This document shows positions 9,015 through 62,770 of a stretch of 64,000 nucleotides of DNA, one piece after another; the first letter of the stretch is position 1; every line of letters begins with the position of its first letter. Source of the stretch: Planctomycetota bacterium (GTDB taxonomy: Bacteria; Planctomycetota; Planctomycetia; Planctomycetales; Planctomycetaceae); the NCBI GenBank assembly GCA_027618475.1, contig JAQCEJ010000013.1, positions 1 to 64,000 of the forward strand, given 5' to 3'. The notes beneath the pieces were generated by a model. The model made no database searches. It worked only from the letters and a program-made list of their open reading frames with translations, and was not told the DNA's origin. The position numbers and the translations under genes were made by a program.

Positions 9015-11945
9015 ATGAAATTCAGATGGCAACCGATGACCAGGGTCTTATTGTTGTTCTTTGGTCTGTGTTGTGCATGGACGTCTACATCACCGGTTGC
9101 AGGACAAGAATCCGAGTTACAATCCGCGCGGGTTCATCTGCTTAGAGGACGATATGAAGAAGCCCGCGACGCATTGGAGCGGCTGGAAAAATCCTTCCAA
9201 GAGGACGAATCGCTCGACGGAGAAGTCGTCGAATTCGTGATCCTGGCGAGTCATCTGCATCAGTCGCTCGGCGAGTGGAGCGAGGCGATATCGATTCTCG
9301 AAACCGACCGGCTCGCCCGCGTAAAATCACCGAAGTTGTTTGCCCGGAAAGCCGAGTTAGCGTTTCTGACAGGTCAATACGGCGCAGCAGAAAAGTTGGC
9401 TCAATCGGCGCTCGATCTGGAGAAGAATCAGCCGCTGGCAACCCTCGTCCTCGGAGATGTCTTCACGGAAACCGGTCGCCTGAAGGATGCCGAAGAAAAA
9501 TATCGCGATCTGGTGCGGTATTACAATCAGACGCAACCGACCGATGCCGAGACGTTGTTGATTGTTGCTCGCGGTGCGGCTCAATACGCGCGCTGGAACG
9601 GTTCAACGCAGATCTTCGAATTTATCGTCAATACGCTTTGTCCCGATGCCATTGCCGACGATAAGAATTATTGGCCGGCGTATTACTTTTCGGGTCTGAT
9701 GTTTCTCGAAAAATACAACGAACCCGACGCGATTGCCGAATTTCAGTCAGCATTGGCGATAAATTTTCAGTCGGCTGAGACACTGACGGCAATAGCCAGG
9801 TCTCGGTTGATCAAATTCGATTACGAAGCCGCCGAACAATCTGCAAAACAAGCACTCGAAATCAATCCTCGGTATCCGCCGGCGCTGACCATTCTCGCCG
9901 ATGTGGCACTGTGGCGCGGAAATCCGGACGACGCACTCGATGCCTTGCGGCAGGCTCTGGACGTCAATCCCTGCGATCAATTCCTGCTGGCGCGCGAAGC
10001 GTTCTGCGATATGCTGAAAACGGGATGGCCGACTGTCGAAGAGCTTGAATCTCTGTGTTCGCATCTTGAAGTGATCGACGACTATAAAGTCGAAAACATT
10101 AAGGTGTATCAGCAAATATTCATCGACCTTGCGAGACGAAATTCTCATCCTGGGGACGCGCTTGCCGAATTGGGGCGTTTGTTCGTGTCACATAGACGTT
10201 ATCCGCAGGCGGAGGTCTGTTTCGTGTGGGCCAACCGTTTGTTTCCGAAACTCCCTGCCCCGAAAGCCGATCTTGCCGAATTGTACCTTCGTGTCGGTCG
10301 ACTGGATGAAGGACAAGCGTTACTCGATGAAGCGTTCAAGGCCGATCCCTACCATGTGCGAATCAGTAACCTGCGCAAGGTGCTCGATCAGCTGAACCAA
10401 TATCGTACAATCACGACCGAACATTTTATTATTCGTGTTGACGGCGAACGCGACGGTATTTATGGCGAAGCCCTCGCCGATTATCTGGAAGACATTTATC
10501 CCGAACTCACTCAGGCCTTTGGTTTTGAACCACCGGAGCGAACGCAAGTTGACGTCTTTCATGAGGGAAGCGGTGAATCGGCGCAAGCGTGGTTCAGCGC
10601 ACGCATGACCGGCTTACCTTGGTTGCACACGATCGGTGCATCAACCGGCAATGTCATATCGATGGTGTCTCCGACGGCGACTGCCAAACCGTACAACTGG
10701 GCTCACGTGGCGAGACATGAATTCGTACACGTGCTCACGCTTCAACAGACCGATTTTGCAATACCGCATTGGCTTACCGAAGCGTTGGCGGTGAAGTACG
10801 AATCGTCCGTCATGCCGTGGCAGTGGCAGGAACTACTTTCCCGACGTTTTTCTGCGGGAAAGCTCTTCGAACTCACCACGCTGAACGACGGATTTCAGCG
10901 CGCGAAATCGCCCGAAGACTGGCAGATGGCGTACTGCCAAAGTCGTCTGTATCTCGAGTTTCTGGAACAGAATTTCGGACCTCAGGTAGCTCTCGACCTG
11001 ATCAAGTCGTATCGACTTAATCTGACAACACAGGATGCCGTCAGGAAAGCGTGTGGCATTGAAGTCATCGAGTTGGAAGCGTCATTCGAGACGTTTGTGC
11101 GCAGTAAGATCGACAAATGGGGACAATCAACGTTTGCAGCAGGTACTGTCGCCGAATGGGAGCAACGGCACGAGCAATTCCCCGAAGACCTCGATGTTCA
11201 GATCTTTCTGGCGCGGGTGCTTTGGGAATCTGGAGAGCAGAAGCGGGCCACGGCTATTATTCGCGACGTTCTGGCATTCAACGATCGACATGAAACGGCG
11301 AACCTCTTTCTCGCCGACACTGAAATCAAGGAGAAACAACTTGACGCCGCACGAGATCGATTGCTCAAGTTGTGGAATCCTCAATCGCCATCGTTACCCG
11401 TACTGTTGCGACTCACGGCATATCATATTCTGAATGACGATCGCAGACAGGCTGCTGAAATGTGCCGAATCGGGCTTGGCAGGTGGCCAGAAAATGTCCC
11501 GCTGATGAAAATGTGTCTTGAAAACACCGGTGACAAGCAGCAGAAAGAAAAGATTCTCGAATCGCTGGTTGCCTATGAAAACAACACGTCTTCCTACTCG
11601 CGTCAGTTGTGTCAACTCGCCTGGGACAAAATGGACTACCCTGCCGTTGTGCGTCACGGCAAGAACGTGCTGCACATCGACGTGCTCGATGCCTCGATTT
11701 ATCCGATGTTGGGAGAAAGTTATCGAAAGCAGAACGAACCGACCAAAGCCGCGAAGGCGTTTGCCACGGCGTGGGAACTTGACGGCGAGAACTTCACATT
11801 CGGCATCAAGGCGGCTGAATGTTTTCGAGATGCCGGCGCTAAGCAGCACGCTCTCGAAATGATCGATGCCGTACTGAAAGATCACCCTGATGACGATAAC
11901 GCAATTGCATTTCGACAGGCTTTGGACAAGAAAGACACCAGATAA
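9015..11945 (+). CDS. Secreted TPR protein with gluzincin (peptidase MA-like) domain
   Basis: 976 residues with a signal peptide (1-30, ending 'SPVAGQ'). Residues ~35-460 are tetratricopeptide-like helical repeats ('ALEINPRYPPALTILADVAL' and others). A zinc metallopeptidase domain follows at ~470-710: H568-E569-x-x-H572 is the HExxH metal site, and 'HWLTEALAVKYE' about 20 residues later supplies the glutamate expected of gluzincins. A second TPR array fills ~720-976. The layout matches TPR-peptidase MA-like proteins. It should act in the periplasm or at the cell surface, and the substrate is unknown. Gaps of 98 bp before and 194 bp after suggest its own transcript. Confidence 0.88.
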   Translation: MKFRWQPMTRVLLLFFGLCCAWTSTSPVAGQESELQSARVHLLRGRYEEARDALERLEKSFQEDESLDGEVVEFVILASHLHQSLGEWSEAISILETDRLARVKSPKLFARKAELAFLTGQYGAAEKLAQSALDLEKNQPLATLVLGDVFTETGRLKDAEEKYRDLVRYYNQTQPTDAETLLIVARGAAQYARWNGSTQIFEFIVNTLCPDAIADDKNYWPAYYFSGLMFLEKYNEPDAIAEFQSALAINFQSAETLTAIARSRLIKFDYEAAEQSAKQALEINPRYPPALTILADVALWRGNPDDALDALRQALDVNPCDQFLLAREAFCDMLKTGWPTVEELESLCSHLEVIDDYKVENIKVYQQIFIDLARRNSHPGDALAELGRLFVSHRRYPQAEVCFVWANRLFPKLPAPKADLAELYLRVGRLDEGQALLDEAFKADPYHVRISNLRKVLDQLNQYRTITTEHFIIRVDGERDGIYGEALADYLEDIYPELTQAFGFEPPERTQVDVFHEGSGESAQAWFSARMTGLPWLHTIGASTGNVISMVSPTATAKPYNWAHVARHEFVHVLTLQQTDFAIPHWLTEALAVKYESSVMPWQWQELLSRRFSAGKLFELTTLNDGFQRAKSPEDWQMAYCQSRLYLEFLEQNFGPQVALDLIKSYRLNLTTQDAVRKACGIEVIELEASFETFVRSKIDKWGQSTFAAGTVAEWEQRHEQFPEDLDVQIFLARVLWESGEQKRATAIIRDVLAFNDRHETANLFLADTEIKEKQLDAARDRLLKLWNPQSPSLPVLLRLTAYHILNDDRRQAAEMCRIGLGRWPENVPLMKMCLENTGDKQQKEKILESLVAYENNTSSYSRQLCQLAWDKMDYPAVVRHGKNVLHIDVLDASIYPMLGESYRKQNEPTKAAKAFATAWELDGENFTFGIKAAECFRDAGAKQHALEMIDAVLKDHPDDDNAIAFRQALDKKDTR

Positions 11946-12139: not shown

Positions 12140-12511
12140 ATGTCGATGACCACACCTGATTCTCCGCATCGTTTGGACAAGTCGGTTTCTTCAGCATTAC
12201 CATCGAGTAAGATGACCCTGGGCGAATGGCAATCCATCATTCAAACAATGTACTCGCGTAAGGACGAAACTCGCGGCGTTGATGGTACGTTTATGTGGTT
12301 TATGGAGGAAGTGGGTGAATTGGCCGCTGCGCTGCGCGAAGGGTCGCCGGACGAGTTGGCGGCTGAATTTGCTGACGTTCTCGCCTGGCTGGCGACGCTG
12401 GCTAATATCAGCGACGTCGACCTGGAGCGGGCGATTCGACTAAAATATGGGAATGGTTGCCCCGGGTGCGGACAAAGCGTTTGCCGATGCGACATGGCCG
12501 AGAAGCCATGA
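12140..12511 (+). CDS. MazG-like nucleotide pyrophosphohydrolase with zinc-binding tail
   Basis: A 123-residue protein with a single MazG domain: 'FMWFMEEVGELAAALREG' and 'ELAAEFADVLAWLATLAN' supply the E-E-x-x-E and E-x-x-D metal ligands of the all-alpha NTP pyrophosphatases. Such enzymes hydrolyse NTPs to NMP and pyrophosphate and can act in house-cleaning. The C terminus has a cysteine knuckle ('GCPGCGQSVCRC') that may bind zinc. About 25 residues before the domain are Ser/Thr-rich and may be disordered; a second ATG lies two codons in. It stands alone, with 194 bp before it. Confidence 0.87.
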   Translation: MSMTTPDSPHRLDKSVSSALPSSKMTLGEWQSIIQTMYSRKDETRGVDGTFMWFMEEVGELAAALREGSPDELAAEFADVLAWLATLANISDVDLERAIRLKYGNGCPGCGQSVCRCDMAEKP

Positions 12512-12797
12512 ACAAGAACGTACAAGTACACGCTCGATCAGATGTGCTCTCGATAAGAACATTGCAGGCTGGTTGAATCTGTGCCATGTTCTGTTTATTC
12601 TCACATGTTCTGGCAATCGTTCGGTTGCTTGTTTCATCGTTACAAAATTGACCTTTTGATGCGGCATATCGGAGTAGAATTTCTACATCCGATCATTTCT
12701 TACCCCTTCTGCAAGACAAGTTTTTCAGAACAACTGGGACATTCATGCCGTCGATAACCGATTTGTGAATCCCGATTTTATACAAGTTCGAGGATTG

Positions 12798-13715
12798 ATG
12801 TCTGCTCGTCGCCAATCAATGACACAACACCATCTGCCTCCGCCACCTGTCCTGAAGGTGACTCGCTACGACCTCTTCAGTTCGCAGATGATGGCGATCG
12901 CGATCTTCCTCGGGTTTGGTGTTGCCGTCTTGGGAGCGTACTGGTTCGTCAATCGGTTGCCTCCTCCGCGAGAGGCGATTCCTGTGGAAATGGTGGAATT
13001 GCCCGGCGGCGTGGAAGATGGTGCAATCGACGAGACACTTCAGGTCGATTCGCCCGAGCCGGAAACCGACGACCCTTCGATGGCTGAAGTGGAAGCGGAA
13101 GAAACGCAGATTCAAGAGACGCTCGAAAATGTCGTCGACGTCGCCGAAGAAGCGACCAACCAGGCGGTTCAGCAATTTCAGCAGGATACATTAAATACAG
13201 GAAAAATCGGCAGTGCCGCCGGTTCGGGACGACGAGCGCTGGGCGCCGGGCCAGGTAAGGCCGGCTTTGGTCGTGAAGAACGTTGGTTCGTTCGCTGGGG
13301 TGATCGCGACGCGCTCGAAACCTACGCCGCTCAACTCGATTCTTTCGGAATTGAACTTGGTATTTTACAAAACGACGGACGTATTGTTTATTTGTCTGGT
13401 TTATCGCAAGACGTTCCCAAGTCGCGTGTCGCAACTTCGGGGAAGGGGGAAGTTCGGCTCTTCATGACATGGCAGGGAGGAGACCGCAAAAAAGCAGACT
13501 TGCTGCTTATCGATAAGGCCCGCAATGCCGGTGTACAGGTCGGTGACGGCCTGATCTTTCATTTCTATCCCAAAGAAACAGAAGACATGATGGCCAATCT
13601 CGAAAAGCAATATCGGAACAAACGACCGGAGCAAATCCGCCGGACGTATTTTGCAGTGCGAGGGAGTAGAAATAATTTTGAATTTTACGTTTCAAGACAG
13701 ACGTATTTGCAGTGA
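12798..13715 (+). CDS. One-TM TonB/TolA-like envelope protein (module A)
   Basis: From the ATG at 12798 (GAGGA at 12790-12794; a GTG at 12765 would add 11 residues) the protein has 305 residues. A short cytoplasmic segment with 'LPPPPVL' precedes one TM helix (~residues 33-54). Then come a Pro/Glu/Asp-rich linker (~58-115), a possible coiled coil ('LENVVDVAEEATNQAVQQFQQ'), a glycine-rich hinge and a globular C-terminal domain (~160-305) with no family I recognise. N-in topology and position just before ExbB/ExbD resemble TonB or TolA, but a TonB C-terminal domain is not evident. I infer that it transmits force from the ExbBD motor. Confidence 0.72.
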   Translation: MSARRQSMTQHHLPPPPVLKVTRYDLFSSQMMAIAIFLGFGVAVLGAYWFVNRLPPPREAIPVEMVELPGGVEDGAIDETLQVDSPEPETDDPSMAEVEAEETQIQETLENVVDVAEEATNQAVQQFQQDTLNTGKIGSAAGSGRRALGAGPGKAGFGREERWFVRWGDRDALETYAAQLDSFGIELGILQNDGRIVYLSGLSQDVPKSRVATSGKGEVRLFMTWQGGDRKKADLLLIDKARNAGVQVGDGLIFHFYPKETEDMMANLEKQYRNKRPEQIRRTYFAVRGSRNNFEFYVSRQTYLQ

Positions 13716-13943
13716 ACTTCGAGCCTGTCGCTCCACCGATTCAGAAGAAAAATCAACACTCCCATTTACGAAAAATTACGTGTCAGAGCGTTCGTGGTTG
13801 AATTGCTCATTGAGGGATGGAAAGTTAAAAACAGACAAGGCCCTGTTTACAAGCAATACAATCCTCTCAGAAATCGATGCGACGACGACAAGCACCTCGA
13901 CAATTAAGCCAACTCCGAACCAGCAGAAAAGAAATCAGTCAAC

Positions 13944-14612
13944 ATGGGATACACCTACGAACAGATTTTCAACGTCATCGGAGTGTGCATTTACATTGCG
14001 ATGGGAGGAATGGCATTTTACGGCGCGTATTGCGTCGCGTTGGTGATTCGCCGCATCGCCCAAAAGCGGTTTTCGAGTGAAGAAGCGGGGGAACAATTCC
14101 TCGCCGAGATTCGTGATCGACTGCGTCAGCGAGATTTTGAAGGCCTGGCAAATTTCTGCGACACGCCGCAGCTCTGGAGTAAGGCCGTACCGCAACTGAC
14201 GATCGTCGCGGTCGAAAACCGCGAATTGCCGATTCCAAAACTGCGACGTCTGCTCGCCGACAAATTTGAACGTGATGTGATCGCAGATCTCGAATACCGC
14301 GTGGCATGGATCGCATCAGTGGTCAAGACAGAGCCGATGTTGGGACTCCTGGGAACCGTCCTGGGAATGATCGGGGCGTTTGCCAAGATCGCCTCGATGC
14401 AGAAGGGGGGGGGCGATCCGACGGCTCTCGCGGGTGACATCAGCTTCGCGCTATGGACGACTGCCGTTGGCTTATTTGTCTCGATTCCCCTCGTACTGGC
14501 AGGTTCAGCGATTCATGTCCGTATGGGTAAACTACAGGATGCCGTACAATTTCAACTCGGACGTCTGATCGAAGAACTCGATCTGGCAGTCCATCAGAAC
14601 AAGGGGGACTGA
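13944..14612 (+). CDS. MotA/TolQ/ExbB proton channel protein (module A)
   Basis: A 222-residue membrane protein with three helices: residues ~10-37, ~120-150 and ~160-185. The two conserved helices carry the family signature 'EPMLGLLGTVLGMIGAF' and 'ISFALWTTAVGLFVSIPLVLA'. In this family it forms the proton-conducting pentamer around an ExbD dimer in the inner membrane. The cytoplasmic loop between helices 1 and 2 is ~80 residues, as in ExbB. Nine consecutive G residues at 14405-14413 encode a Gly-Gly-Gly loop between the conserved helices. A 228-bp gap precedes the gene, and an ExbD gene follows 2 bp after the stop. Confidence 0.93.
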   Translation: MGYTYEQIFNVIGVCIYIAMGGMAFYGAYCVALVIRRIAQKRFSSEEAGEQFLAEIRDRLRQRDFEGLANFCDTPQLWSKAVPQLTIVAVENRELPIPKLRRLLADKFERDVIADLEYRVAWIASVVKTEPMLGLLGTVLGMIGAFAKIASMQKGGGDPTALAGDISFALWTTAVGLFVSIPLVLAGSAIHVRMGKLQDAVQFQLGRLIEELDLAVHQNKGD

Positions 14613-14614
14613 GC

Positions 14615-15064
14615 TTGGCCAAGCGAAGTCTTTTCAACGATATCGACGACGGGTTTGCCCCGACTCCTCGCGAACCGGATGAAGCGGATATCGACATCAC
14701 GCCGATGATCGATTGCGTGTTTCAATTGCTTATCTTTTTTATGGTGACGTCGACGATGCAATCGACTCCCGATCTCGACGTCCCCACAGCGAATTATGGA
14801 ACCGGTGTCGAAACCGAAAGTGCATTAATACTTACCATTCTCGCCGGCGACCCGCCTCGAATCATTCAGGGGGACGGCGAAGGTATCGAGGTCACGATCG
14901 ATGGTGTGAGCAAACTCGTATCAGACAACATGCAAAAACAGCAAAATCACGTTATTATCAAGGCGGAACGACAGGTCGCCCATGGTTTTGTGCAATCGGT
15001 GGCTCGTGCCGTTATCGAAGTCGAAGGAGCTCAGTTCTATATTGGCGTAAATGAAGAGAAATAG
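14615..15064 (+). CDS. ExbD/TolR biopolymer transport protein (module A, first copy)
   Basis: A 149-residue protein beginning with TTG two bases after the ExbB stop, so translation is probably coupled. The single TM helix (~residues 28-50) has the classic motif 'DIDITPMIDCVFQLLIFFMV', with the aspartate needed for proton coupling in ExbD and TolR. Residues ~60-149 form the small periplasmic domain. Together with the ExbB before it and a second ExbD after it, it should form the motor of this cluster. Confidence 0.93.
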   Translation: MAKRSLFNDIDDGFAPTPREPDEADIDITPMIDCVFQLLIFFMVTSTMQSTPDLDVPTANYGTGVETESALILTILAGDPPRIIQGDGEGIEVTIDGVSKLVSDNMQKQQNHVIIKAERQVAHGFVQSVARAVIEVEGAQFYIGVNEEK

Positions 15065-15123
15065 CCTGCGTTAGTTCATGACTTGATAATGCGAAACTGT
15101 TTTCTGGATTCGAGTGAAACGCG

Positions 15124-16101
15124 ATGCCTATCCGCTTTCGATGTCCTCAGTGCCGGCAGCTTTCGGGAATTGCCTCTCGCAAGGCGGGGAGTTCCGTTCA
15201 ATGTCCGCGCTGTCAGGCACGAATCATTGTGCCTATGGAGGATATGAAAGAAGCGACATGGGATCCCGACTCACCCGACACAACAGACGGCAGTGCGGAA
15301 GCGCCCGACGCACCTCAAACATCACCAGACGGCGATAAAGCAAAAGAGACCGATGAGTGGGGACGCGTGCGCTGGGACGCGAATGCCACATGGGACGACG
15401 ACTTTGCTTCCGACGAAGGCACCGGCGATTCAGAGTTTCCTGCGGAACCGGGTGCCCCTGTCGATATGGGTTGGGACGAAGAGGATTTTGCAGTTTCTCC
15501 GGAGCCCCGTCCGGTCGCAGAGAAACCTCCGCCACAGATATTAAGACGTTCATCGGAATCAAAACCGTCTGCCGCGGTGCCTGCTTCCGCATCAACTCCC
15601 GTCCGTCCACCCCCGCCTGCGAAATCGGTCTATGTGGCGGGTGCCGATGAAGGAGATGATGAACTGACCATTCGAAAAATGAAGTCAGATTTCGATGAGA
15701 TGGATCTGACACCGATGGTCGATTGCACCTTCCTGTTATTGATCTTCTTCATGATTACGGCGTCTTTCAGTTTGCAGAAAACTATCGAGGTGCCGCCGCC
15801 AAATCCCGACAAGAAGGGGGCGGCACAATCACTGCAGACTCTCGACGATTTTAAAGAAGATTCGATCATCGTCGAAATCGACGAACGAAATGTGATTGTG
15901 ATTGACGACGAGCCGCTTACCGCACTCGCGAGTCTGGCACAAGTCTTATCCAACAAGATGCTGATGGAGAAAAAGACCGAATTGATGCTCATGGCCCACG
16001 ACAATGCGTGGCACGAAACGGTCGTCGCCGTTATCGATTCGGCCAACGAGGTAGGAATGCAGCGAATTCGAATGGCAGCACATGGCGGCAGCGACGACTG
16101 A
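15124..16101 (+). CDS. ExbD protein with N-terminal zinc ribbon (module A, second copy)
   Basis: 325 residues. The first ~40 form a zinc ribbon with two CxxC pairs ('CPQC' and 'CPRC'), of a kind found at the N termini of many planctomycete proteins. A long acidic, Pro-rich, probably disordered cytoplasmic linker follows (~42-185). The ExbD part begins at ~190: 'EMDLTPMVDCTFLLLIFFMI' holds the TM helix and its aspartate, followed by a periplasmic domain. It is more than twice the usual ExbD length because of the cytoplasmic extension, which could let a cytoplasmic signal or partner act on the motor (inference). The next gene, 72 bp on, encodes an FHA protein. Confidence 0.9.
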   Translation: MPIRFRCPQCRQLSGIASRKAGSSVQCPRCQARIIVPMEDMKEATWDPDSPDTTDGSAEAPDAPQTSPDGDKAKETDEWGRVRWDANATWDDDFASDEGTGDSEFPAEPGAPVDMGWDEEDFAVSPEPRPVAEKPPPQILRRSSESKPSAAVPASASTPVRPPPPAKSVYVAGADEGDDELTIRKMKSDFDEMDLTPMVDCTFLLLIFFMITASFSLQKTIEVPPPNPDKKGAAQSLQTLDDFKEDSIIVEIDERNVIVIDDEPLTALASLAQVLSNKMLMEKKTELMLMAHDNAWHETVVAVIDSANEVGMQRIRMAAHGGSDD

Positions 16102-16146
16102 CGCAACAACATTAGATTCAACGTTCACCGCATAGCGTATTGGAGA

Positions 16147-16162
16147 CTTGCGAAGTCGCAAG
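16147..16162 (+). promoter_or_regulatory. Hairpin just before the FHA gene start
   Basis: CTTGCG (16147-16152), AAGT loop, CGCAAG (16157-16162): a perfect 6-bp stem 11 nt before the ATG at 16174, followed by ATGATCATTTT. It lies where a ribosome-binding site would be, and no good Shine-Dalgarno is visible. It could affect translation or act as an attenuator. Confidence 0.4.
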
Positions 16163-16173
16163 ATGATCATTTT

Positions 16174-19100
16174 ATGGCGATTCTTGAAATTCGATACCTG
16201 GATGGCACGACAGAGCAACGCGAGCTGACCAAGCAGATTCCGCTTTCGATCGGGAGCCATTCTTCGAGCGACATACTGATCGCAGATAAGGCCGTTCAAC
16301 CGCTTCATTGCCGTATCGCATGGAAGAAGGATGGGTATGAAGTCACATCGGGATCGAGTCAGGGGATAGAAATCAATGGCAGGTCGGTCAGCTTCTCACC
16401 TCTGAAGGAGGGGGACGTTCTCCAGATCGGCCAGGTCGATATTTGTTTCCTGCAAGACGACACCCTTGAAAGCGGTTCAGCGATTGTCGCAGATCAGGTC
16501 GAACCGCCACTGGAGGGGTTATCTGTGGAGATCGATCTGAAGCCGTTAACGGATGACAAAATTCCTCAATACAGCCCCAAACCTCCACCTGTGAAACCGT
16601 CTTCCGATTCGGCAAACCAGGAAGATAAAGCAGGGATCAAGGGCCTTCAGCCGGAAGAGCCGAAAACATCCAAGCGGAATGCTGATTCGCAGAAAAGCGA
16701 GAACGCTCGAAAGGACGCATCAACAAGAAAGTCGAAAAGCAGTAAGAAATCAAAAGGGGAGCGAAAAGAAGGCTCTTCGGGAAAGAAAAGCCCGTTCATC
16801 GAAGAGGACGACGATAGTACCCCTATCCGCATTCTCGATGAATCTTCGTCTGCTGGTCCGGAACCGACGCTTGTTGATGTGGATCTGGAAATTGTCGATG
16901 AGTCATCTGACGTCGCCGAGAGCGAAATTTTTCTGTCTCGTTCTCATGCACAGGCGGGAGAACCTGAGATTCGCGCGAAGGCGACACCTGAAAAAGACCG
17001 CGACAAACCGTCAAGTTCGACCGAAGCCTCGCCCCAGTCGGCAGCCAAACAAGATGATCAGGCGATTGTCTCGCGGCTCAAAAGAGAATTCGCTTCGGTG
17101 CGGCCGGGCGAGCAGGAATTGCTCCGTTCGCCGCTGGTTTTGGGGTTGGGCGGAGGGTCGTTGGTACTCCTGTTGCTGGGGGCAACATTTTACTTCATTA
17201 TTCTTCGCGACTCGGGCCAACGATTTTATGACGAGGCGTATAGTCGATTCGAACAACGGGATTACAACCAGGCGATTCCGATGTTCGAAAACTTCATCGA
17301 GGCACATGGTCGTCACCGCATGACCCCCGAAGCCCGCTGGAATTTAAGTGTTGCAAAAGTCGACCAGCACATCTCCGGGTCGGTCCCCGACTGGCAAATG
17401 GCCCTCGATGCACTGAACGAGCTGTTGAAAGATCATCGCCGCGATGAGGATTTTTCGGCCCGTAAACCCGCCGTTGTTCAATATGCCGAGACGATTGCAC
17501 TCGAGGCGGCGAAGGCGGCAGGGACACGGCTCGAACGACCATTGTTGCAAACATCGACTGAAGCGTTGGGATTGGTTGACCTTAACAGCGATGACGATCC
17601 GAAAGCTGATTTCAAACAGCAGGTTACATCGGCACAAAATCGTTCTGAATCGTTACTGCGTCGACACGAGGCATTGACGGAAACCCTGCTGAAAATGACG
17701 GCATCTCTCGAAAAACGTGATACGCTCGAGGCGCTGAGGCAACGTCAGCAATTGCTGGATCGTTATCCACGTGATGAATTTATTTCGGGGAATTCCGATT
17801 TACGTAAGGCGTTGAACCGATCACTGGAAATCGAACAGTCTCGTGTTGAACCGTTCGACGAAACGGTTGAAGCGTTGACGTCGATACCCGTCGATTATGA
17901 AGTACCCAGGGTTATTCTTGCGCCAAATGCGCGCTCGCGGACCAATGCGCAATCCGAGAATGAAGTCGCCTTCGTTCTTGCACAGGATGCGGTGTTCGCT
18001 GTCGACACCATGACTGGAATCCCTCAATGGTCACAGACTTTGGGTGACGAAACCCCTTTTTTTCCGATTCCCATGCAGACGTCGAATTCGGGGCTGCTGG
18101 TGTTTCACACAATCGAGCACGAGTTGAGGTATCTATCGCGGAAGGATGGCTCGCTCATCTGGCGGCAGCCACTTGCGGGTGAAATGACAGGAAGCCCGCT
18201 GCTCTTCGAAGGTCAGATCTTTATCGCAACCTCCGGGGGAAATCTGTGGCGCATCGATCAGGAATCAGGGCGATTGAATTACCGGCTGAAATTTCCACAG
18301 GAATTGTCGGGAGCACCCGCCGTTGCTGCGCAGGGAGAGGCTTTGATCGTCGCCGGCAACAAAGGTCTTGTCTATACTTTGGGATTGCGCCCATTACAGT
18401 GCAGTCACGTGACCTATCTGGGACATAAGCCGTCTTCCATCAACGCCCCCTTAATGACACTGGGATCGATGGTGCTTGCGGCGGAAAATGCAACGACAAA
18501 TTCATCGTTGCTGCGTATGTTGTCGGTAACGTCTCCTGATAAACCGTTACGAGTCGCCGGCACCGATAAAGTCGACGGACACGTCCGAGACAACCTTGCT
18601 GTCCGCGGGAATCAATTGTTTGTTCCGTCGAGTGGCGAGCGTGTCACCGTGTTTACCGTATCAGACGAAGCAGGGCAAAAGTCGCTTTCGAAAGTGAGTG
18701 CGTTTCAGGTCGAAGGCGGGAAAGGGGGCCCCATTTACATCGGTGCAGGACCGAATCAACAGTTGTGGATGTCGAGCACGGCGTTTCGACGGCTTGAAGT
18801 CGAAGGAGACACCATCAAACCCGATTCGCATCAACTCGCCGTCGGTTTGAGTTCGCAACCCCTGCAGATGTCTGGTGATTTCGTGTACGTTGGTCGGAAG
18901 CAACCCTACAGTACCGCCGTTTATTTTGCTCAAGTCCAGCGAGAAGCGATGACGAGTCTCTGGCGAACGATTGTGGGTTCGCCGACGATATGTCTCACAC
19001 CGATCGATAACAACTCTGCGGTGATCGTGAACGAGACGGGCGATGTGTTCAAAATCAACAACAGCGAATTTGATTCCGGTGGATTCAAACTGTCAACAAC

Positions 19101-20019
19101 GACCTCGCTGCCATTCCCAGAAACGTTACAGGAACCGCCGCGAGCCGCCGCATTACCGAATGGCCGAACGGCCGTTGTGATTGGAGGGGAAAGTCCCCGT
19201 GCATGGGTGCTGAATGCCGCAGGACAGGTTGAAACGGATCAATTGCTTGAAGCTCCCATCGATTTTAGTCCGATCCCGTGGGCGGGAGGGATTGTCGTTA
19301 CATCAGGAGGACGCATTCGACTCATCCAGCGAACCTCGGGACTTCCGCCCGTGGAGGAGTATGCCGCGACAAGCGGTGCCGATCAGACGGTACACTGGCG
19401 TTCGCTTCTTCCTGTCGACGACGAACATCTGATTGCGATCGACGAAAACGGAAAGATGGTGAAGTTGCAACTTCGTCAGTCCCCCTCGCCGGCTCATCTC
19501 GCTGAAATATCGACGGTTCAGTTGGATCATCCGGTCGACGTCGGACCGGTGATCATCGACGGTCAATTATGCCTCGCCGATGCTGCCGGAGAACTAACGA
19601 TTTGGGATGCCTCGACGTTCGACAAAATTCATTCATTGAAGTTAGCGGTGCCGGCTACACGCGATCTGTGGCTGCCCGGCGGTAAATTGTGTTTACAAGT
19701 GGGAACGCGGGAATTGGCATACTATCAGGTTGGTGACGAACTGAAATCCATCTGGACGCTTCCCCTGAATGGAAACGGGCTGGCGGGGGCACCCCTGGCG
19801 ACCGAGCAGGAGATGGTCATCGCTCAATCGAACGGAACGATCAGCATCGTTGGTATAGACAACGGTCAAGTCAACAAGACGATTTCTCTCAATACACGCC
19901 TCACATCGGGTCCGATCGTTGTAGGAGACGCGACAGTGATACGTTCCGGTGATGGTAGTATTTACCGTATCGATGGCTGGATGAACTCAGAAAATACAAA
20001 TTCGGACGCGACAAAATAA
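16174..20019 (+). CDS. FHA domain, TM, TPR and PQQ-propeller protein (module A)
   Basis: 1281 residues. Residues ~1-95 are an FHA domain ('SIGSHSSSD', 'HCRI', 'INGRSVSF'), a phosphothreonine-binding fold acting in the cytoplasm. Residues ~110-310 are charged and low complexity (Lys/Ser/Glu). One TM helix lies at ~321-344. The periplasmic part has a TPR-like segment (~350-560), then many PQQ-like beta-propeller blades ('VFAVDTMTGIPQWSQTL', 'LSRKDGSLIWRQPL', 'LWRIDQESGRLNY' and more) to the end. The layout suggests a protein that reads a phosphorylated cytoplasmic partner and positions a large periplasmic propeller. It follows ExbB/ExbD/ExbD closely and is probably part of the same assembly. 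I know of no characterised homologue with this architecture. Confidence 0.88.
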   Translation: MAILEIRYLDGTTEQRELTKQIPLSIGSHSSSDILIADKAVQPLHCRIAWKKDGYEVTSGSSQGIEINGRSVSFSPLKEGDVLQIGQVDICFLQDDTLESGSAIVADQVEPPLEGLSVEIDLKPLTDDKIPQYSPKPPPVKPSSDSANQEDKAGIKGLQPEEPKTSKRNADSQKSENARKDASTRKSKSSKKSKGERKEGSSGKKSPFIEEDDDSTPIRILDESSSAGPEPTLVDVDLEIVDESSDVAESEIFLSRSHAQAGEPEIRAKATPEKDRDKPSSSTEASPQSAAKQDDQAIVSRLKREFASVRPGEQELLRSPLVLGLGGGSLVLLLLGATFYFIILRDSGQRFYDEAYSRFEQRDYNQAIPMFENFIEAHGRHRMTPEARWNLSVAKVDQHISGSVPDWQMALDALNELLKDHRRDEDFSARKPAVVQYAETIALEAAKAAGTRLERPLLQTSTEALGLVDLNSDDDPKADFKQQVTSAQNRSESLLRRHEALTETLLKMTASLEKRDTLEALRQRQQLLDRYPRDEFISGNSDLRKALNRSLEIEQSRVEPFDETVEALTSIPVDYEVPRVILAPNARSRTNAQSENEVAFVLAQDAVFAVDTMTGIPQWSQTLGDETPFFPIPMQTSNSGLLVFHTIEHELRYLSRKDGSLIWRQPLAGEMTGSPLLFEGQIFIATSGGNLWRIDQESGRLNYRLKFPQELSGAPAVAAQGEALIVAGNKGLVYTLGLRPLQCSHVTYLGHKPSSINAPLMTLGSMVLAAENATTNSSLLRMLSVTSPDKPLRVAGTDKVDGHVRDNLAVRGNQLFVPSSGERVTVFTVSDEAGQKSLSKVSAFQVEGGKGGPIYIGAGPNQQLWMSSTAFRRLEVEGDTIKPDSHQLAVGLSSQPLQMSGDFVYVGRKQPYSTAVYFAQVQREAMTSLWRTIVGSPTICLTPIDNNSAVIVNETGDVFKINNSEFDSGGFKLSTTTSLPFPETLQEPPRAAALPNGRTAVVIGGESPRAWVLNAAGQVETDQLLEAPIDFSPIPWAGGIVVTSGGRIRLIQRTSGLPPVEEYAATSGADQTVHWRSLLPVDDEHLIAIDENGKMVKLQLRQSPSPAHLAEISTVQLDHPVDVGPVIIDGQLCLADAAGELTIWDASTFDKIHSLKLAVPATRDLWLPGGKLCLQVGTRELAYYQVGDELKSIWTLPLNGNGLAGAPLATEQEMVIAQSNGTISIVGIDNGQVNKTISLNTRLTSGPIVVGDATVIRSGDGSIYRIDGWMNSENTNSDATK

Positions 20020-20111
20020 GAGATTCGAACAGTGCGTTACAAACTGATAGAATGCAATCAGATTCTTCATAATCCAAGGCAATTCGCGACGGTGTAAGAG
20101 TCTCGTAAGAA

Positions 20112-20142
20112 CATTCACCCACTGGAAATTGTGAATGGGGAG
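20112..20142 (+). promoter_or_regulatory. Inverted repeat next to the ribosome-binding site
   Basis: CATTCAC (20112-20118) and GTGAATG (20131-20137) form a perfect 7-bp inverted repeat with a 12-nt loop. The right arm abuts and partly overlaps GGGGAG (20137-20142), the likely ribosome-binding site for the ATG at 20150. Folding of the leader could affect initiation. Confidence 0.4.
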
Positions 20143-20149
20143 CGTGGAA

Positions 20150-23100
20150 ATGTTCAATAAGAATTGGCGATTCTTGATCATTCTGGCAGCTGCGGTTTAC
20201 GCCGGCACTGTTTTCGATGGATCACCGTTTCGTGGGGTTTCTTTACGCACGGCCGGAGCACAGAATCCAGCCGACACGCCCGCTGAAACTCCTGACGCCG
20301 AAGTGCCGGCCGATCCGACGACGCCTTCAGCGGCAGAAGAGGAGTTTCTTTCATCCGATGCGCCCAAATTGCGGAGCGAATTGACGCTGCCGTCGGATGC
20401 GCAACTCTTGAATGGACCGAAAAACGACTGGGTTGTCTTTTATAGTCAGGAGGATACTGGCCCGTTGAATGCGGATTCTCCAATTCCTCCTGACATTCCT
20501 GAATATGCGCTGGTCGTCGAACCTTTGTATCCCCGTCCGGGAACATTGGATTCGATCAGGGCCAGAATCAACGAACGGTTTGATTCCGAAACGTTTGTCG
20601 ATCGTGCACTTTTAGAAGAGTTGCCGATTGAAGAAGGCTTGCTGTATCGCAACCTGATCTACCAGAATATGGAAGCCGACGAGTTGAAGCAACATACGAT
20701 AAACCGCATTCGCAACGCCGATGTTTCCACGATCGAACAGACTCCTCCTGACAGTCGCCTCGACCTTCCCGAGTTAATCATCGATTTTTTTCGTAAAGAA
20801 GCATTTCGCTCGACGAGCGGTCGAAAGTCGAAGGACAAGGATGGAGACAAGTCGGCCCAGCGGGATCTGACCGATCTTCTTAAAGGTAATACATTTAAAA
20901 AAATCCTGATTGAGCAAGTCGAAAAGCTTCCGGCTGCCCGTTATCAGGAACTCCGAAAAACCGTTGTGAAGGATGCTGAAGAACTCGCCGACAAAGATCT
21001 CAGCGCCGACGAACGCCGTGAGATGCGACGCCAGCGTCAGGATGATCGCCGTCAAGCCGCACAAGAATTGCGGGATCTAAAAACCGAGCGTCGTAAAATA
21101 ATGGTCGAAGAGCGAGACAGGCTTGATATGCTCTCGCTGGTTCTGCCGAATGGTGGCGAGCAGCCCGAAGTACGTATTCGTATCCGGTATGTTAAAGAAA
21201 TCGTCTATCACGAAGACCAGATGCTGCTGCGCGTCGATCAATTAATTCAGGAACAACAGCTCGGTATGGCTTTCGAAATGCTGTACATTCTCGAAAAGCA
21301 GTCTCCGCAGTGGCCTGGTCTGACGAACCGCAAGGCCAATCTCATACTCGCGGAATCCATTGCCAAACGGAATGCAAGCGATCTGGTGAATGCCCTGGTT
21401 CTCGTCGAAGAAGTTTATCGGCTTGATCCACAGACTGCGGGGCTCTCCGAACAAGCGGGACGCGTCGTCGACGATCTCATTCAATCGGCTTATGCCGACG
21501 CCGACGAGCGCAGGGCTCGTCACTACCACCGTCGACTGAAAGACCTGTTTCCTGATCATGCCGTCGTTGTGCGGTGGGAAACGGAATGGTCGTCGCAATC
21601 TGAACAGCTGATTGCCGATGCGCAAGCCGCATTTTCTGCTCGCCAGTACGCCGATGCGACTGATATCATCCGTCGCGCCAGCCGGGTCTGGCCGAACGAG
21701 CCCCAACTTCCCAGCGCCTATCGAAAAATTGTGAATCGCAATCAGCGGCTTGAAGTGGGAGTTCTGAGACGGTTTGACGGTGAACCACATCTTCCGTGGC
21801 GTACGATCGTTCAAGAAAGCCATCGTCGTTTGCTGGAAGTTGATCTGTTTGAAGTGACCGCCGTCAATAAGCAGACTCGATTTGCGTCGCGCTATTTCGA
21901 GCGCTGGGATCCTACAAATCTCGGGCGAGAGACCGAATTCTGGCTTCGCCGGGGGCGTCGCATTGATGAATCGTTGCCGCTGATTTCGGCAACCGCTGTG
22001 GCCGATGAATTGCATCGTCGTGTTCAACCCGATTCACCCGACTATGACGAACGACTGGCGAGTTATCTTAAATCCGTTACGGTAAAGTCGCCGTTCGAAC
22101 TCTCAGTAAAATTTTCGCGCATCCCATTTCAGTCGGAGGCACTGTTTCGATTCCCCATCACCGCCGAGAGTTCATCGCTACACGCACCGATGACGGCGGC
22201 AGTCACCTCGTCGAATTCCATCGCGGGGGCTCAAACAGTTCAAACTTCGTCAGAGACTGTGTCGGAACAAGTCGCTACGCAAGCCGATCAACCATTGGCA
22301 CAGCGATTTGTTCTGCATGTGCAGTCAGACGAACGAGTGATCTATCGTCGAGCGATTCCCGAGCCGGATGACTTACCCGAATATCATATGGCAGAGATTT
22401 CGGTGCAACGTTTTCCGGATTCAAAGACGTTACTGCAGGCTCTGTTGCGTGGTGAGATATCGATGATCACCAACCTCGAAAAACCGGACGTCGCAATTTT
22501 GCAAAACGACGATCGATTTACCGTCGGCAAGTACGGTCTGCCGGTCACCCATCTCATTCAGTTTCACCCCGAGAGTGAGCCGCTGAGGAATGTGCAAGTT
22601 CGTCGAGCATTAGCATACGGCATCAATCGTGAAAAAATCTTACAGGACTTGATTCTAAAAGGGGCTGATCCCGCTTGGGGTCGATTGATATCCGCACCTT
22701 TTTCCAGTCAACACGACGCCTACAGCAAGTTGATTTCTACGCGGCCCTACGATTTGACGATGTCGCTTTCACTGTTGTTTTCAGCGAAACGGCAGTTTCC
22801 CGATGGTCTGCCCGTCCTGAAGATGGCGTGTGAACCCGACACAACCTTACGGGCCGCGGCGGAACGTATCGCTCGCGACTGGTCGAGGATGGGGATTCAA
22901 GTCGAACTTCTCCCCATAGAAGTCGACCTGTCTGCAACATCTGACGACGGAAGCCCCCCCTGGGACATCGTCTATCGCACGGCCGTCGTCGAAGATCCGA
23001 TCATGGAACTCTGGCCTCTGGTTTGCCAACAGCCTCATGCAGCTGTCGCATCGCTTTCATTTCTTCCCGACTGGCTTCGTCAGGAATTTATCGAACTCGA

Positions 23101-23311
23101 AAATGCCGCTGATTTCAAGACGGCGATTGGCTGGATGCATCGATTGCACGAACATTTGCAGAATGAAGCCGTCGTCGTTCCTCTTTGGGAAACGGATGAA
23201 TTCTACCTGTATCGCAAGAATATCCGCGGTGTTCCCACACAACCGATCTGGGGTTATCAGGACGTCGAGTCCTGGGCGTTGACACCCTGGTATGCAGTAG
23301 AGACCCCCTAA
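20150..23311 (+). CDS. Secreted TPR protein fused to family 5 extracellular solute-binding domain (module A)
   Basis: From the ATG at 20150 (GGGGAG 8 nt upstream; an ATG at 20135 is also in frame) the protein has 1053 residues. It has a signal peptide (~1-40), an Ala/Pro/Asp/Glu-rich linker, a charged helical part (~220-350) and TPR-like repeats (~360-530). The C-terminal half matches the ABC oligopeptide-binding family (SBP_bac_5): 'VRRALAYGINREKILQDLIL' is its typical substrate-domain helix, followed by 'ERIARDWSRMGIQVELLPI' and a WYA-type end. Ordinary members are ~500-600 residues, free or lipid-anchored. The TPR extension and lack of permease genes suggest a scaffold or ligand sensor rather than an ABC importer (inference). 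Confidence 0.85.
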   Translation: MFNKNWRFLIILAAAVYAGTVFDGSPFRGVSLRTAGAQNPADTPAETPDAEVPADPTTPSAAEEEFLSSDAPKLRSELTLPSDAQLLNGPKNDWVVFYSQEDTGPLNADSPIPPDIPEYALVVEPLYPRPGTLDSIRARINERFDSETFVDRALLEELPIEEGLLYRNLIYQNMEADELKQHTINRIRNADVSTIEQTPPDSRLDLPELIIDFFRKEAFRSTSGRKSKDKDGDKSAQRDLTDLLKGNTFKKILIEQVEKLPAARYQELRKTVVKDAEELADKDLSADERREMRRQRQDDRRQAAQELRDLKTERRKIMVEERDRLDMLSLVLPNGGEQPEVRIRIRYVKEIVYHEDQMLLRVDQLIQEQQLGMAFEMLYILEKQSPQWPGLTNRKANLILAESIAKRNASDLVNALVLVEEVYRLDPQTAGLSEQAGRVVDDLIQSAYADADERRARHYHRRLKDLFPDHAVVVRWETEWSSQSEQLIADAQAAFSARQYADATDIIRRASRVWPNEPQLPSAYRKIVNRNQRLEVGVLRRFDGEPHLPWRTIVQESHRRLLEVDLFEVTAVNKQTRFASRYFERWDPTNLGRETEFWLRRGRRIDESLPLISATAVADELHRRVQPDSPDYDERLASYLKSVTVKSPFELSVKFSRIPFQSEALFRFPITAESSSLHAPMTAAVTSSNSIAGAQTVQTSSETVSEQVATQADQPLAQRFVLHVQSDERVIYRRAIPEPDDLPEYHMAEISVQRFPDSKTLLQALLRGEISMITNLEKPDVAILQNDDRFTVGKYGLPVTHLIQFHPESEPLRNVQVRRALAYGINREKILQDLILKGADPAWGRLISAPFSSQHDAYSKLISTRPYDLTMSLSLLFSAKRQFPDGLPVLKMACEPDTTLRAAAERIARDWSRMGIQVELLPIEVDLSATSDDGSPPWDIVYRTAVVEDPIMELWPLVCQQPHAAVASLSFLPDWLRQEFIELENAADFKTAIGWMHRLHEHLQNEAVVVPLWETDEFYLYRKNIRGVPTQPIWGYQDVESWALTPWYAVETP

Positions 23312-23313
23312 GA

Positions 23314-25047
23314 ATGCAATCACCAGAGATCTGTCCCATGAACGATCAACGCTTCTCTCGTCGAAAAAACTTCGGCTTACGGGATTGTTCCCTTCGTTCG
23401 ACGAGCACCCCAGATAGCATCCGGTCGGTACTCGCAACGGTTTTTGTTCTGACGATTCTAGTTCATTTATCGATCGAACAAGTGTTTGCTCAGGACGCGG
23501 CTGAGCCAACTAACAACCGAGAATCGGACGCATCGACCGACAAACAACAGACTGTACCGGCATCATCCGAGTCTTCTCCCGGTGCCGATGAACCTGTCAT
23601 AAAAACAAAGGCTCCGGTTGTTCCGCTGCCGTACGATTTGACACCGTACCGTGTTCATCTTGGAGTATCATTTCCCATTGGCGGTACGATCAGCCGGGCA
23701 GTGCAGCAACAGGTTCATTCGTCGTTGTCGCATGCCGTGATGCGATCGGTATCGGGAATGTGGGATCACACGGTCGAAGAAAATGATTGGATGTTTCCCG
23801 CGAATGCCGAAGGAGTTCGTCGACTAACGCCTGACGAATTGAAAATTCGATATCGGCGTGGTGACTGGGACAAGGCGTTCTTCATTGCGATTGCTCCATT
23901 GGGAGCGGGCTTTCAGCTTGCCGCGCGGGAATGGGACGTTGTAACCGAATCGTTGGGGCCGGTCTCCGAAACGATTGTTTATGACGAAAGAGAATTGGGC
24001 AATGCGGCATTTCGGCTGTCGATTTCATTGTTTCGTGCCGTTGCCTATGTGACCTCCGCTGATTCCCAACGGGCTGAACTGGTTCTCAGAGCCGGCGAAT
24101 ATCCCCCTCCCGATGACGATTGTCAGCAACTCCATGTCGGAGAATATCTCACTCCCGAATTGCTGATCTATACCCGAGAACGTGACATTAAGGGGATTCA
24201 GCAAGTACCGTGGACATACCTGACGGTCGAATCCATCGAGCGCGGTCGCGTTGTTTGTGAAGTGAAAAGTGGACTTCGAGCCGCTCTGCCGGGAAAGAAA
24301 CGTCGCATAGAAACCGTTGCGCTCGTCTCAAAACCGCATCTGGAGTCCAGCAAGATTCACCTCACGCTTTCCAAAAACGATCGACGAAATCTTGTCGGAT
24401 ATCACGTGACGCTCACATCGGTGCATCCGCGGGAAATTGCGGCCTGGGAACGTGCATTGGAGAAAGCACGAGAAGAGAACCCTGATGCCACTCCCGATTC
24501 GCCCCCGCCGGGCGAGCTACAATTCTTCCTTTCAGACCGTGAAGGAAACGTCGGCATTCCGCATACGCCTGAGCATCCGCTGATCTGGCTGACGGTTCGC
24601 AGCGGAAAGTTGCTGCTGGCTCGCGTTCCCTATATTCCCGGAGTGGTTCCCGTCACCGATCTTGAATTGCCAGACGATACCATTCGTCTGATGGCCGAGG
24701 GAGACCTGTCGATTCTGCAAGGTCGTCTTATCGACACCGTTGCACAAGGTGCGGTATTGCGTGCAAAAGCGATCGCCGCGCTTAAAGACGGCAAGCCTGA
24801 AGAGGCTGCCGTCTCAAAACAGAAGTGGGAAGCGCTCGACAAACGCGATAATTTTCTGGCCGATCTCTCATCAATTCGTGTCACCGGTGTGGAAGCCGCC
24901 CGTGCCGACAAAGACAAACTGACCGAAGCACGAGTCCGGGCGATCTGCAAAGAGACTGAAGAGTTAATCAATCGCTATCTTGACCCGAAAAAGGTGTCCG
25001 ATTTCGAGTCTGAATATGCAGAATTCAAGTCACTTAAAACCGAATGA
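23314..25047 (+). CDS. Secreted protein of unknown function (module A)
   Basis: 577 residues starting two bases after the previous stop; an ATG at 23338 would shorten it by eight. A hydrophobic segment at ~36-58 ending 'VFAQ' acts as signal peptide or anchor. A Ser/Asp/Glu-rich linker (60-95) follows, then a long mixed alpha/beta region (~100-450) rich in Arg and Glu, and a helical C terminus (~460-577) with heptad-like charged residues. I recognise no family. Tight spacing to the solute-binding fusion puts it in the same operon, and it ends 24 bp from a convergent gene. Confidence 0.8.
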   Translation: MQSPEICPMNDQRFSRRKNFGLRDCSLRSTSTPDSIRSVLATVFVLTILVHLSIEQVFAQDAAEPTNNRESDASTDKQQTVPASSESSPGADEPVIKTKAPVVPLPYDLTPYRVHLGVSFPIGGTISRAVQQQVHSSLSHAVMRSVSGMWDHTVEENDWMFPANAEGVRRLTPDELKIRYRRGDWDKAFFIAIAPLGAGFQLAAREWDVVTESLGPVSETIVYDERELGNAAFRLSISLFRAVAYVTSADSQRAELVLRAGEYPPPDDDCQQLHVGEYLTPELLIYTRERDIKGIQQVPWTYLTVESIERGRVVCEVKSGLRAALPGKKRRIETVALVSKPHLESSKIHLTLSKNDRRNLVGYHVTLTSVHPREIAAWERALEKAREENPDATPDSPPPGELQFFLSDREGNVGIPHTPEHPLIWLTVRSGKLLLARVPYIPGVVPVTDLELPDDTIRLMAEGDLSILQGRLIDTVAQGAVLRAKAIAALKDGKPEEAAVSKQKWEALDKRDNFLADLSSIRVTGVEAARADKDKLTEARVRAICKETEELINRYLDPKKVSDFESEYAEFKSLKTE

Positions 25048-25071: not shown

Positions 25072-26295
25072 TTAATAATCGGCGATCGATCCATCTTCGA
25101 GTTTGATCTCGGGCCACTTCCATTCGTAATTCGGGTCGGCGGCGATGGCCTGCATTTTCTCGACGTCGAATGTCACGCCTAATCCTGGTCCGTCCGGCAG
25201 TGTCGCGTAAGCCGTTGTGTCGTCAACGCTCCACGGACGATTCATAAACTGTTCGCCCCACTTCAGCGCCCCCGGTGCGGTTTCGTGGATCAACAGGAAC
25301 GGAATGGATGCTCCCACGCTTAGACTCGCCGTTGCTCCGAGTGGTGACGTGGTGCAATGCGGTGCAAGCGGAACATGATACGCTTCGGCGAGTACGGCAA
25401 TCTTTTTCATCTGTGTGATCCCGCCGCAGTGAGCCACATCGGGTTGCAGAACATCGATTGCTGCTTCGTGCAGATAGGGGATAAATTCCCAGATCGTGTG
25501 ATCGCGCTCTCCGGTCGCCAGTGGAATGTCGATCGCGGCTTTCAGTCGCTTGAAGACCTCGATATTTCCTGGTACGGCCACCTCTTCCATGAACAACACA
25601 TCGTACGCCTTGACGGCAGCCGCCAATTGAATGAGTGCCGCCGGAGGCACCGCGCAATGGGCATCGAACATGACGGTTCCGTCGGGGCCGACCTGATCGC
25701 GCGTTCGTTTGATCGCATTGACCATTCGCTCGACTTCGTCGGGGTTGATGGCATGTCCGTAGACCCCATGAGGCGGAACTTTGTGCGATTTCGATGTCGG
25801 ATAGACCTTCACTTTGTCGCGGCATGGTCCTCCGAGCAGGCGATACACGGGAACGCCCCATAATTTCCCTGTGAGATCCCAAAGTGCCATGTCGATTCCC
25901 GCGATGGTATGACTCATGAACGGCCCGCCACGCATATCGCGGTGCGCCCGGAATAGTTTCTGCCAGAGGAATTCAATCCGTGTCGGATTTTCGCCTTTGA
26001 GTAAGTCGAACATTTTTCGGGCGAGCACTTCGGCTGCTGTCGGCACCAGAGCGCTCACTTCACCCCAGCCGGTGACTCCCATGTTTGTCATCAATTCTAC
26101 GTAGACTTTATGCTGCACGAGATGCGTGCGCATTTCGGTCAGTCGAATCTCGGAAGCCGAATCGGCCACGTGCTCTGCAGGGTTGTTCTCCTGCGCGACC
26201 GCGTGATTCAGCACCATCATCCCGCCGACGGTGGCTCCCAGTGTTCCCAACAGATCCCGGCGATTGAGGGTTGTCGTCTTTTTCGTCTTGCTCAT
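25072..26295 (-). CDS. Enolase-superfamily dehydratase, D-galactonate dehydratase-like, with Tat-like leader
   Basis: 407 residues. Residues 12-35 are a twin-arginine-type leader ('NRRDLLGTLGATVGGMM'). The rest is a mandelate racemase/muconate lactonising barrel. Metal ligands are D211, E237 and E263; H213 (in D-x-H) and H313 would be the acid/base residues. As I remember them, these match E. coli DgoD D183, H185, E209, E235 and H285 with a constant shift of 28, the size of the leader. The enzyme would dehydrate a sugar acid to a 2-keto-3-deoxy acid. Substrate is not certain, and export is unusual for a catabolic enzyme, though common in Planctomycetes. AGGAG (26306-26310 on the minus strand) supports the start. 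Confidence 0.88.
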   Translation of the reverse strand: MSKTKKTTTLNRRDLLGTLGATVGGMMVLNHAVAQENNPAEHVADSASEIRLTEMRTHLVQHKVYVELMTNMGVTGWGEVSALVPTAAEVLARKMFDLLKGENPTRIEFLWQKLFRAHRDMRGGPFMSHTIAGIDMALWDLTGKLWGVPVYRLLGGPCRDKVKVYPTSKSHKVPPHGVYGHAINPDEVERMVNAIKRTRDQVGPDGTVMFDAHCAVPPAALIQLAAAVKAYDVLFMEEVAVPGNIEVFKRLKAAIDIPLATGERDHTIWEFIPYLHEAAIDVLQPDVAHCGGITQMKKIAVLAEAYHVPLAPHCTTSPLGATASLSVGASIPFLLIHETAPGALKWGEQFMNRPWSVDDTTAYATLPDGPGLGVTFDVEKMQAIAADPNYEWKWPEIKLEDGSIADY

Positions 26296-51046: not shown

Positions 51047-51425
51047 TGAGCGATGATTTCCGGTTCCCTGCCTGAACGCGAAAGGTGGATTTCACCGGCA
51101 TCGCAGGTTTTTTGACTATGTTCCGTGCCTTTATGTTAATTATGCTATGAACAATAGAGGTCGGCTCGACATCTCGACGGGTCGACCTTTTCATATTTCG
51201 GGATGTCGGCATGCGATGAGTCTGTCGACCCAATTCGCAAATTCGTTACCGCAAACACGGTTGGAATTGGCTTGAAAACGTCACGACGACAAAAGCCGAT
51301 ATCCTGTTGACCGAACCAGACGCCCTGATTTAGGTTGGAAAGGATGCCAGCTTATCAGTCGACGAAAAAAATTCAGATATCCGAGGCGGGCAGGATAGGA
51401 CTTGCCGGCCGCAAAGGGGGACGTC
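51047..51425. other. 379-bp intergenic region before module B
   Basis: No gene is supported. It contains a probable terminator hairpin near 51158-51191 and must contain the promoter of the large plus-strand cluster that follows. AAAGGGGG at 51413-51420 is the likely ribosome-binding site of the TPR gene. Confidence 0.5.
51158..51191 (+). terminator. Possible intrinsic terminator
   Basis: AGGTCG (51158-51163) pairs with CGACCT (51183-51188), with an inner TCGA/TCGA pairing, and is followed by TTT. It lies 112 bp after the DUF1501 stop. The stem is short and the tail only fair. Confidence 0.45.
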
Positions 51426-53930: not shown

Positions 53931-54007
53931 ATTCCACACTTGAATTTCAATCGCTGACGAGAAGCGATCTCAGTTTCCACTGAACCATCTCGTGAAAGGA
54001 TTTCCGT

Positions 54008-62265: not shown

Positions 62266-62330
62266 AGTGGCGATGAGCAGAATGATCCCGATGATTTTTC
62301 GACGACACGAAATATGAGCTGATCAGTAAT

Positions 62331-62768: not shown

Positions 62769-62770
62769 TT

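Follow-up and report, generated by a model that had tools for sequence, protein, structure and literature searches.

A run of seven genes in a planctomycete genome encodes an ExbB/ExbD-type motor together with transducer-like, beta-propeller and solute-binding proteins, and in some relatives a complete Ser/Thr kinase is joined in one protein to one of the motor subunits. ExbB/ExbD-type motors drive TonB-dependent uptake, Tol-Pal and gliding. We give about even chances to the reading that this module is a PMF-driven trans-envelope machine resembling Tol and Agl-Glt, with its cytoplasmic side coupled to Ser/Thr-kinase signalling; it is the architecture, as deduced from sequence, that suggests the coupling of motor and kinase.

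A seven-gene operon with a predicted proton-driven motor

The window, a 64,000-nucleotide stretch of one contig, contains seven plus-strand ORFs at 12765–25047, in the sequence g1, ExbB, ExbD, zinc-ribbon ExbD, FHA-TM-TPR-propeller protein, TPR-SBP_5 protein and secreted protein (Table 1). The gene list and order of the original prediction were correct: all the ORFs are present and their domains were confirmed by Pfam/NCBIfam, with MotA_ExbB in g2 (E 9e-21), the two ExbDs (7e-17 and 7e-23), FHA (4e-11) and a PQQ_2/BamB-like propeller (1e-18) in g5, and SBP_bac_5 in g6 (5e-22). The predicted periplasmic beta-propeller of g5 and the solute-binding fold on TPR repeats of g6 are supported by these matches, those to TPR being weak; g1 and g7 matched no family in the same libraries. 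As also predicted, no ABC permease is found among the seven genes. The module contains no outer-membrane beta-barrel or Pal gene either, which counts against a trans-envelope machine.

Table 1 Genes of the module, with positions in the window
Gene	Position	Strand	Features
g1	12798..13715	+	Single N-in TM segment; linker, helical or disordered; conserved domain at the C-terminus; topology like that of TolA/TonB
g2	13944..14612	+	ExbB/TolQ/MotA-type motor subunit; pore Thr motifs present, TM3 Glu missing
g3	14615..15064	+	ExbD 1; TM Asp conserved
g4	15124..16101	+	ExbD 2; cytoplasmic zinc ribbon at N-terminus
g5	16174..20019	+	Cytoplasmic degenerate FHA; juxtamembrane RPGEQ motif; TM; TPR; periplasmic PQQ/BamB-like beta-propeller
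g6	20135..23311	+	Secreted; TPR and SBP family 5
g7	23314..25047	+	Secreted; modelled TolB-N/FlgT-like domains, then Ig-like domain and C-terminal helical bundle

The first start codon of g1 is a GTG at 12765 (316 aa), and the ATG at 12798, which is also available, is the likelier start. Intergenic gaps are 2–116 bases long, except for one of 228 ahead of g2, and the gene downstream of g7 (25072–26295) is convergent; promoter and terminator scans gave results near chance. The proteins g5, g6 and g7 are 1281, 1058 and 577 aa long.

Elsewhere in the window, a MazG-like gene lies upstream of g1 (12140–12511) and has homologues upstream of the module at three other loci (L046, L050, L056), and a TPR and peptidase-MA protein (9015–11945) has a relative at the same place in L056 (2215–5157). 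A second ExbB/ExbD region (51402–62884) comprises a TPR protein, a 2441-aa TPR protein, an ExbB (61333–62265) and a weak ExbD-like ORF, and is possibly of the TPR-TolQ-TolR kind (PMC12204202).

The pore Thr motifs of ExbB, GLLGTV and TTA, are conserved in g2, and the proton-binding TM Asp, in a D(L/I)TPMxD-type motif, is found in both ExbDs as well as in the kinase fusions described below. The TM3 Glu present in E. coli ExbB and TolQ is missing from g2; its absence was rejected as a module-specific trait because some ExbB paralogues also lack it. In g4, the zinc ribbon gave a sub-threshold Pfam match (0.003), and its CxxC...CxxC pattern is conserved.

The module recurs across Planctomycetia

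Of 40 regions retrieved from relatives, ~20 keep g1 to g7 in order and on one strand, and several others are truncated by contig ends. Of 80 named loci, 37 show the full order if those with an extra match are included, and most of the others stop at contig edges; the two sets overlap. The named loci come from Schlesneria, Gimesia, Planctomicrobium, Thalassoglobus, Fuerstiella and uncultured Planctomycetaceae, and at some of them, mostly in Schlesneria, g1 stands alone. Homologues of g6 were found in 51 of 59 relatives.

Several lineages depart from this order. One variant, in family f2 (L045), keeps g1-g5-g6-g7 together with the motor genes elsewhere, and this lack of adjacency counts against the reading of the seven genes as one machine. 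Another, in f4, keeps g5-g6-g7 together with g1–g4 elsewhere; L042 has a divergent arrangement of its own, and f3 genomes lack g6. Detached motor clusters hold g2 and g3 together, mostly with g4 too. Across 17 genomes, chosen to have the module with detached motor genes, the module in place, or no g6 found, a full-length g2-type ExbB (119–248 bits) was present in all 13 module-bearing genomes, including those with a detached motor, and the four genomes without g6 gave ExbB matches of at most 49 bits, which are weak paralogues.

The order is recurrent across much of the class Planctomycetia and is not due to chance, and in the split lineages the pieces co-occur in the genome. The expected conservation of the seven-gene order is therefore mostly seen, with the exception that some lineages have split it while keeping all the pieces; nor was the FHA protein seen paired elsewhere with an unrelated kinase cluster, an arrangement that the original prediction had named as evidence against it. 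A g1 profile searched against 294 genomes of the phylum (one genome per species) gave strong matches restricted to the same class, and within the searches made the module is specific to Planctomycetia.

The FHA domain of g5 is degenerate and often lost or replaced

An FHA domain was recovered in 51 of 79 distinct g5 homologues, a few of them partial. The structural His is kept in 26/29, and among the same number of domains the residues that contact phosphothreonine are rarely found (Arg in 8, Ser/Thr in 2, both in 1); g5 of the window has Ser and Gln at these positions. The RPGEQ juxtamembrane motif is found in 55/72. A model of OdhI matched the FHA domain of g5 (E 1e-5), and a model of GltG matched it below cut-off (E 0.0012), over the FHA and linker stretch only.

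At L041–L043, g5 begins without an FHA domain, which was verified on the DNA for L041. In family f5 (L069, L070 and L072), a helical domain takes its place and aligns with the N-terminus of a Ser/Thr kinase adjoining g7 (hhalign E 7.6e-8). A single-sequence search with this alternative N-terminus reached no kinases in the genomes searched, and profile comparison did reach them. The kinase gene with the resembling N-terminal domain is convergent with g7 and lies at 2006–3415 in L069, 15406–16803 in L070 and 2971–4380 in L072. With its contacts degenerate and the domain frequently lost or exchanged, the idea of a phosphothreonine-reading FHA is not supported.

A Ser/Thr kinase is fused to ExbD2 in one clade

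The N-terminal part of g4 (ExbD2) differs by lineage: some have a zinc ribbon, others an entire Ser/Thr kinase, and others again a GYF_2-like domain with weak support. In g5 this part is an FHA domain, is missing, or shares homology with the N-terminus of the neighbouring kinase. ExbD2 and g5 pair constant motor and periplasmic parts with exchangeable cytoplasmic parts, all of them of signalling or protein-docking kinds.

At 13 named loci, the g4 slot is occupied by a protein of 499–575 residues with Ser/Thr kinase and ExbD domains in one frame. The four fusions scanned matched Pkinase PF00069 at E 1e-49 to 1e-52 and ExbD at E 1e-17 to 1e-20, and the catalytic Lys, HRD, DFG and SPE (APE-type) motifs are intact in all 13. 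Among 150 genomes searched in the family, at least 16, from five or more genera, have a full-length fusion; shorter alignments pointed to a sixth genus, for which the locus itself (G005) gave confirmation. Examples of complete modules with the fusion are those of the single-contig genome G344 (L235) and of G029, G370, G349 and G005, and in G014 the contig with the fusion shows g1 to g6. At two further places (L210, 12278–13797, and G415:C133:53537–55053) kinase and ExbD parts lie on separate neighbouring ORFs, either a real split or a sequence error.

On the g1 tree, the fusions mostly form one clade; the exceptions are rows with a contig that stops short of g4, and loci where g1 is duplicated. 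All ten typed fusion modules lack an FHA domain (KIN+FHA 0, KIN+none 10), which counts as little more than one event because they belong to one clade. The operon of the window genome has the zinc-ribbon form of ExbD2 and no kinase; the kinase link is drawn from relatives, essentially from one clade, plus adjacent genes in another. It had been proposed that ligand sensing outside and phosphorylation inside gate the motor. The fused ExbD2 and, in one family, the domain of g5 that resembles the N-terminus of the adjacent kinase give unexpected support to the broader idea of a link between phosphorylation and motor.

These domains would also suit an outside-to-inside sensor, in which g6 and the propeller bind a ligand and the energised complex alters the output of the ExbD2-linked kinase, zinc ribbon or FHA domain in the manner of GlnH-GlnX-PknG-OdhI/GarA. 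This main rival, which we hold to be unlikely, draws on the presence of an orphan SBP with TPR, a zinc ribbon, an FHA domain and a Ser/Thr kinase in one system, on the OdhI match and on the precedent of an SBP that controls a Ser/Thr kinase (PMC6069109, PMC9769921). The actinobacterial system shares a permease-less SBP, TPR, a Ser/Thr kinase and an FHA protein with the module, but these are separate proteins with no ExbB/ExbD motor. Sensing has no need of a proton motor, however, and both the degenerate FHA contacts and the absence of FHA where the kinase is fused argue against such a relay. A Tol/Glt-like machine with kinase coupling is the parsimonious reading and the likeliest of those considered.

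Periplasmic parts and genome context

The earlier description of g1 as TonB/TolA-like holds for its topology and fails for its sequence, which has no SHLS histidine and no detected TonB_C. Its C-terminal globular domain was modelled with pLDDT above 80. Pfam detected neither TonB_C nor TolA domain III in it, and the confident model had no counterpart in the PDB (Foldseek E 0.54 and VIA Z 3.6 at best). The protein is laid out like a transducer, a candidate role against which count this missing fold match and the lack of a His at the motor-box position of the aligned g1 TM segments. No plasmid match was found for g1, and no meaningful PDB sequence match for g1 or g7. At L207, L221 and L239, two adjacent copies of g1 precede the motor genes.

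The SBP part of g6 includes both lobes, its profile aligning to NikA 25–488 over positions 348–799 of 819. For g7 (model pLDDT 89, pTM 0.77), the best Foldseek matches were FlgT (E 3.6e-9) and TolB (1e-6), with VIA Z scores, of middling size, of 9.0 over 206 residues and 8.5 over 114 residues, and were confined to its two N-terminal domains. This confident model, by structure only, points to a TolB-N/FlgT-like fold.

In the window genome (G000), neither PF07715 (plug) nor PF03544 (TonB_C) had a match, and TonB-type transport is therefore unlikely here. TolB_N (PF04052) was found in none of 21 genomes, the window genome included, where classical TolB was not detected. OmpA-domain proteins are present in the genome, none of them in the module, and say little about Pal. 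Given that TolB_N, TonB_C and plug are all undetectable in this genome, the module may be the trans-envelope machine otherwise missing from Planctomycetia.

ExbBD-energised uptake of a ligand or macromolecule, with g6 as the carrier, seems improbable to us: a family 5 SBP, ExbBD and secreted periplasmic parts would serve it, and planctomycetes do take up macromolecules (PMC5394234), but the operon has no permease and no outer-membrane receptor, the genome has no detected plug or TonB_C, and the sequence of g1 is not TonB-like.

Discussion

The Tol/Glt-like reading draws in part on likeness to systems that each differ from the module in some respects. With Tol-Pal, it shares a TolQ/TolR-type motor, a single-TM transducer-like protein, a beta-propeller, a TolB-N-like domain and TPR in one operon; unlike in Tol-Pal, the propeller belongs to g5 and the TolB-N-like domain to another protein, g7, g5 is membrane-anchored, PF04052 has no match, no Pal lies in the module, and there are two ExbDs, an extra SBP and cytoplasmic signalling domains.

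The zinc ribbon of g4 parallels the zinc and GYF domains of GltJ, which speaks for a machine of the Agl-Glt kind serving surface motility or a fibre or crateriform structure. The Agl-Glt gliding and sporulation system of Myxococcus xanthus (AglRQS, GltG, GltJ) likewise combines one TolQ-type with two TolR-type motor proteins, which together with the FHA domain also speaks for the main reading, and has an inner-membrane protein with a cytoplasmic FHA domain and a periplasmic part (GltG), and TPR proteins (PMC3169522); in contrast to the module, GltG has TonB_C, the published core has no SBP, propeller or TolB-N/FlgT-like protein, and by the models run g1 and g5 are not homologues of GltG and GltJ. 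Such a motility or crateriform role is very improbable, although the one ExbB, two ExbDs and FHA parallel Agl-Glt and crateriform structures join the inner and outer membranes (PMC5394234), since the operon has no Glt outer-membrane proteins, GltG matches weakly and over the FHA stretch, and f3 lacks g6, so that the link fails if Gemmata, in which crateriform structures occur, belongs to f3. Crateriform structures as the product of the module were set low for lack of evidence.

The vWA force-transducer modules of PVC bacteria (PMC12204202) also occur in Planctomycetes and have a TPR protein, one TolQ, two heterologous TolRs and a transducer-like protein. They are a separate kind: their transducer family keeps the SHLS histidine that g1 lacks, the present module has no vWA, and FHA, SBP and kinase are not described for them.

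Gene order, domain calls, co-occurrence, domain swaps, the kinase fusion with its intact motifs and the predicted g7 fold come from the analysis itself; how the Tol/Glt-like machine would assemble, transmit force and pass signals, and what it would do in the envelope, we infer along the following lines. ExbB would form a pentamer with the two different ExbDs as its heterodimeric axle, and g1 and the membrane-anchored propeller of g5 would bring the work of the motor to the periplasmic side and there make contact with g6 and g7. The cytoplasmic ends of ExbD2 (zinc ribbon, GYF-like domain or Ser/Thr kinase) and of g5 (FHA, kinase-N-terminus-like domain or none) would be exchangeable control modules, through which the motor might be positioned or switched by Ser/Thr-kinase signalling, or might drive that signalling.

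We found no description of the module or of the kinase–ExbD fusion in the open papers searched, and no paper joining kinase, ExbD and Planctomycetes within the open literature searched; ExbD goes unmentioned in the main text of a paper surveying planctomycete kinase architectures (PMC11032199). A TraDIS data set for Planctopirus limnophila may hold essentiality data if that species has the module; the main text of its paper does not mention ExbB, ExbD or Tol (PMC10632474).

More tentatively, and with a doubtful chance of being right in full, the module may be a class-wide planctomycete envelope machine that replaces Tol-Pal and whose motor has a direct link to Ser/Thr-kinase signalling, made in one clade by a kinase within the axle subunit. 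The kinase-fused ExbD, undescribed in the papers searched, would then tie a proton motor physically and directly to phosphosignalling, and, if a kinase does sit in the axle subunit, the state of the motor and the state of phosphorylation would be physically linked.
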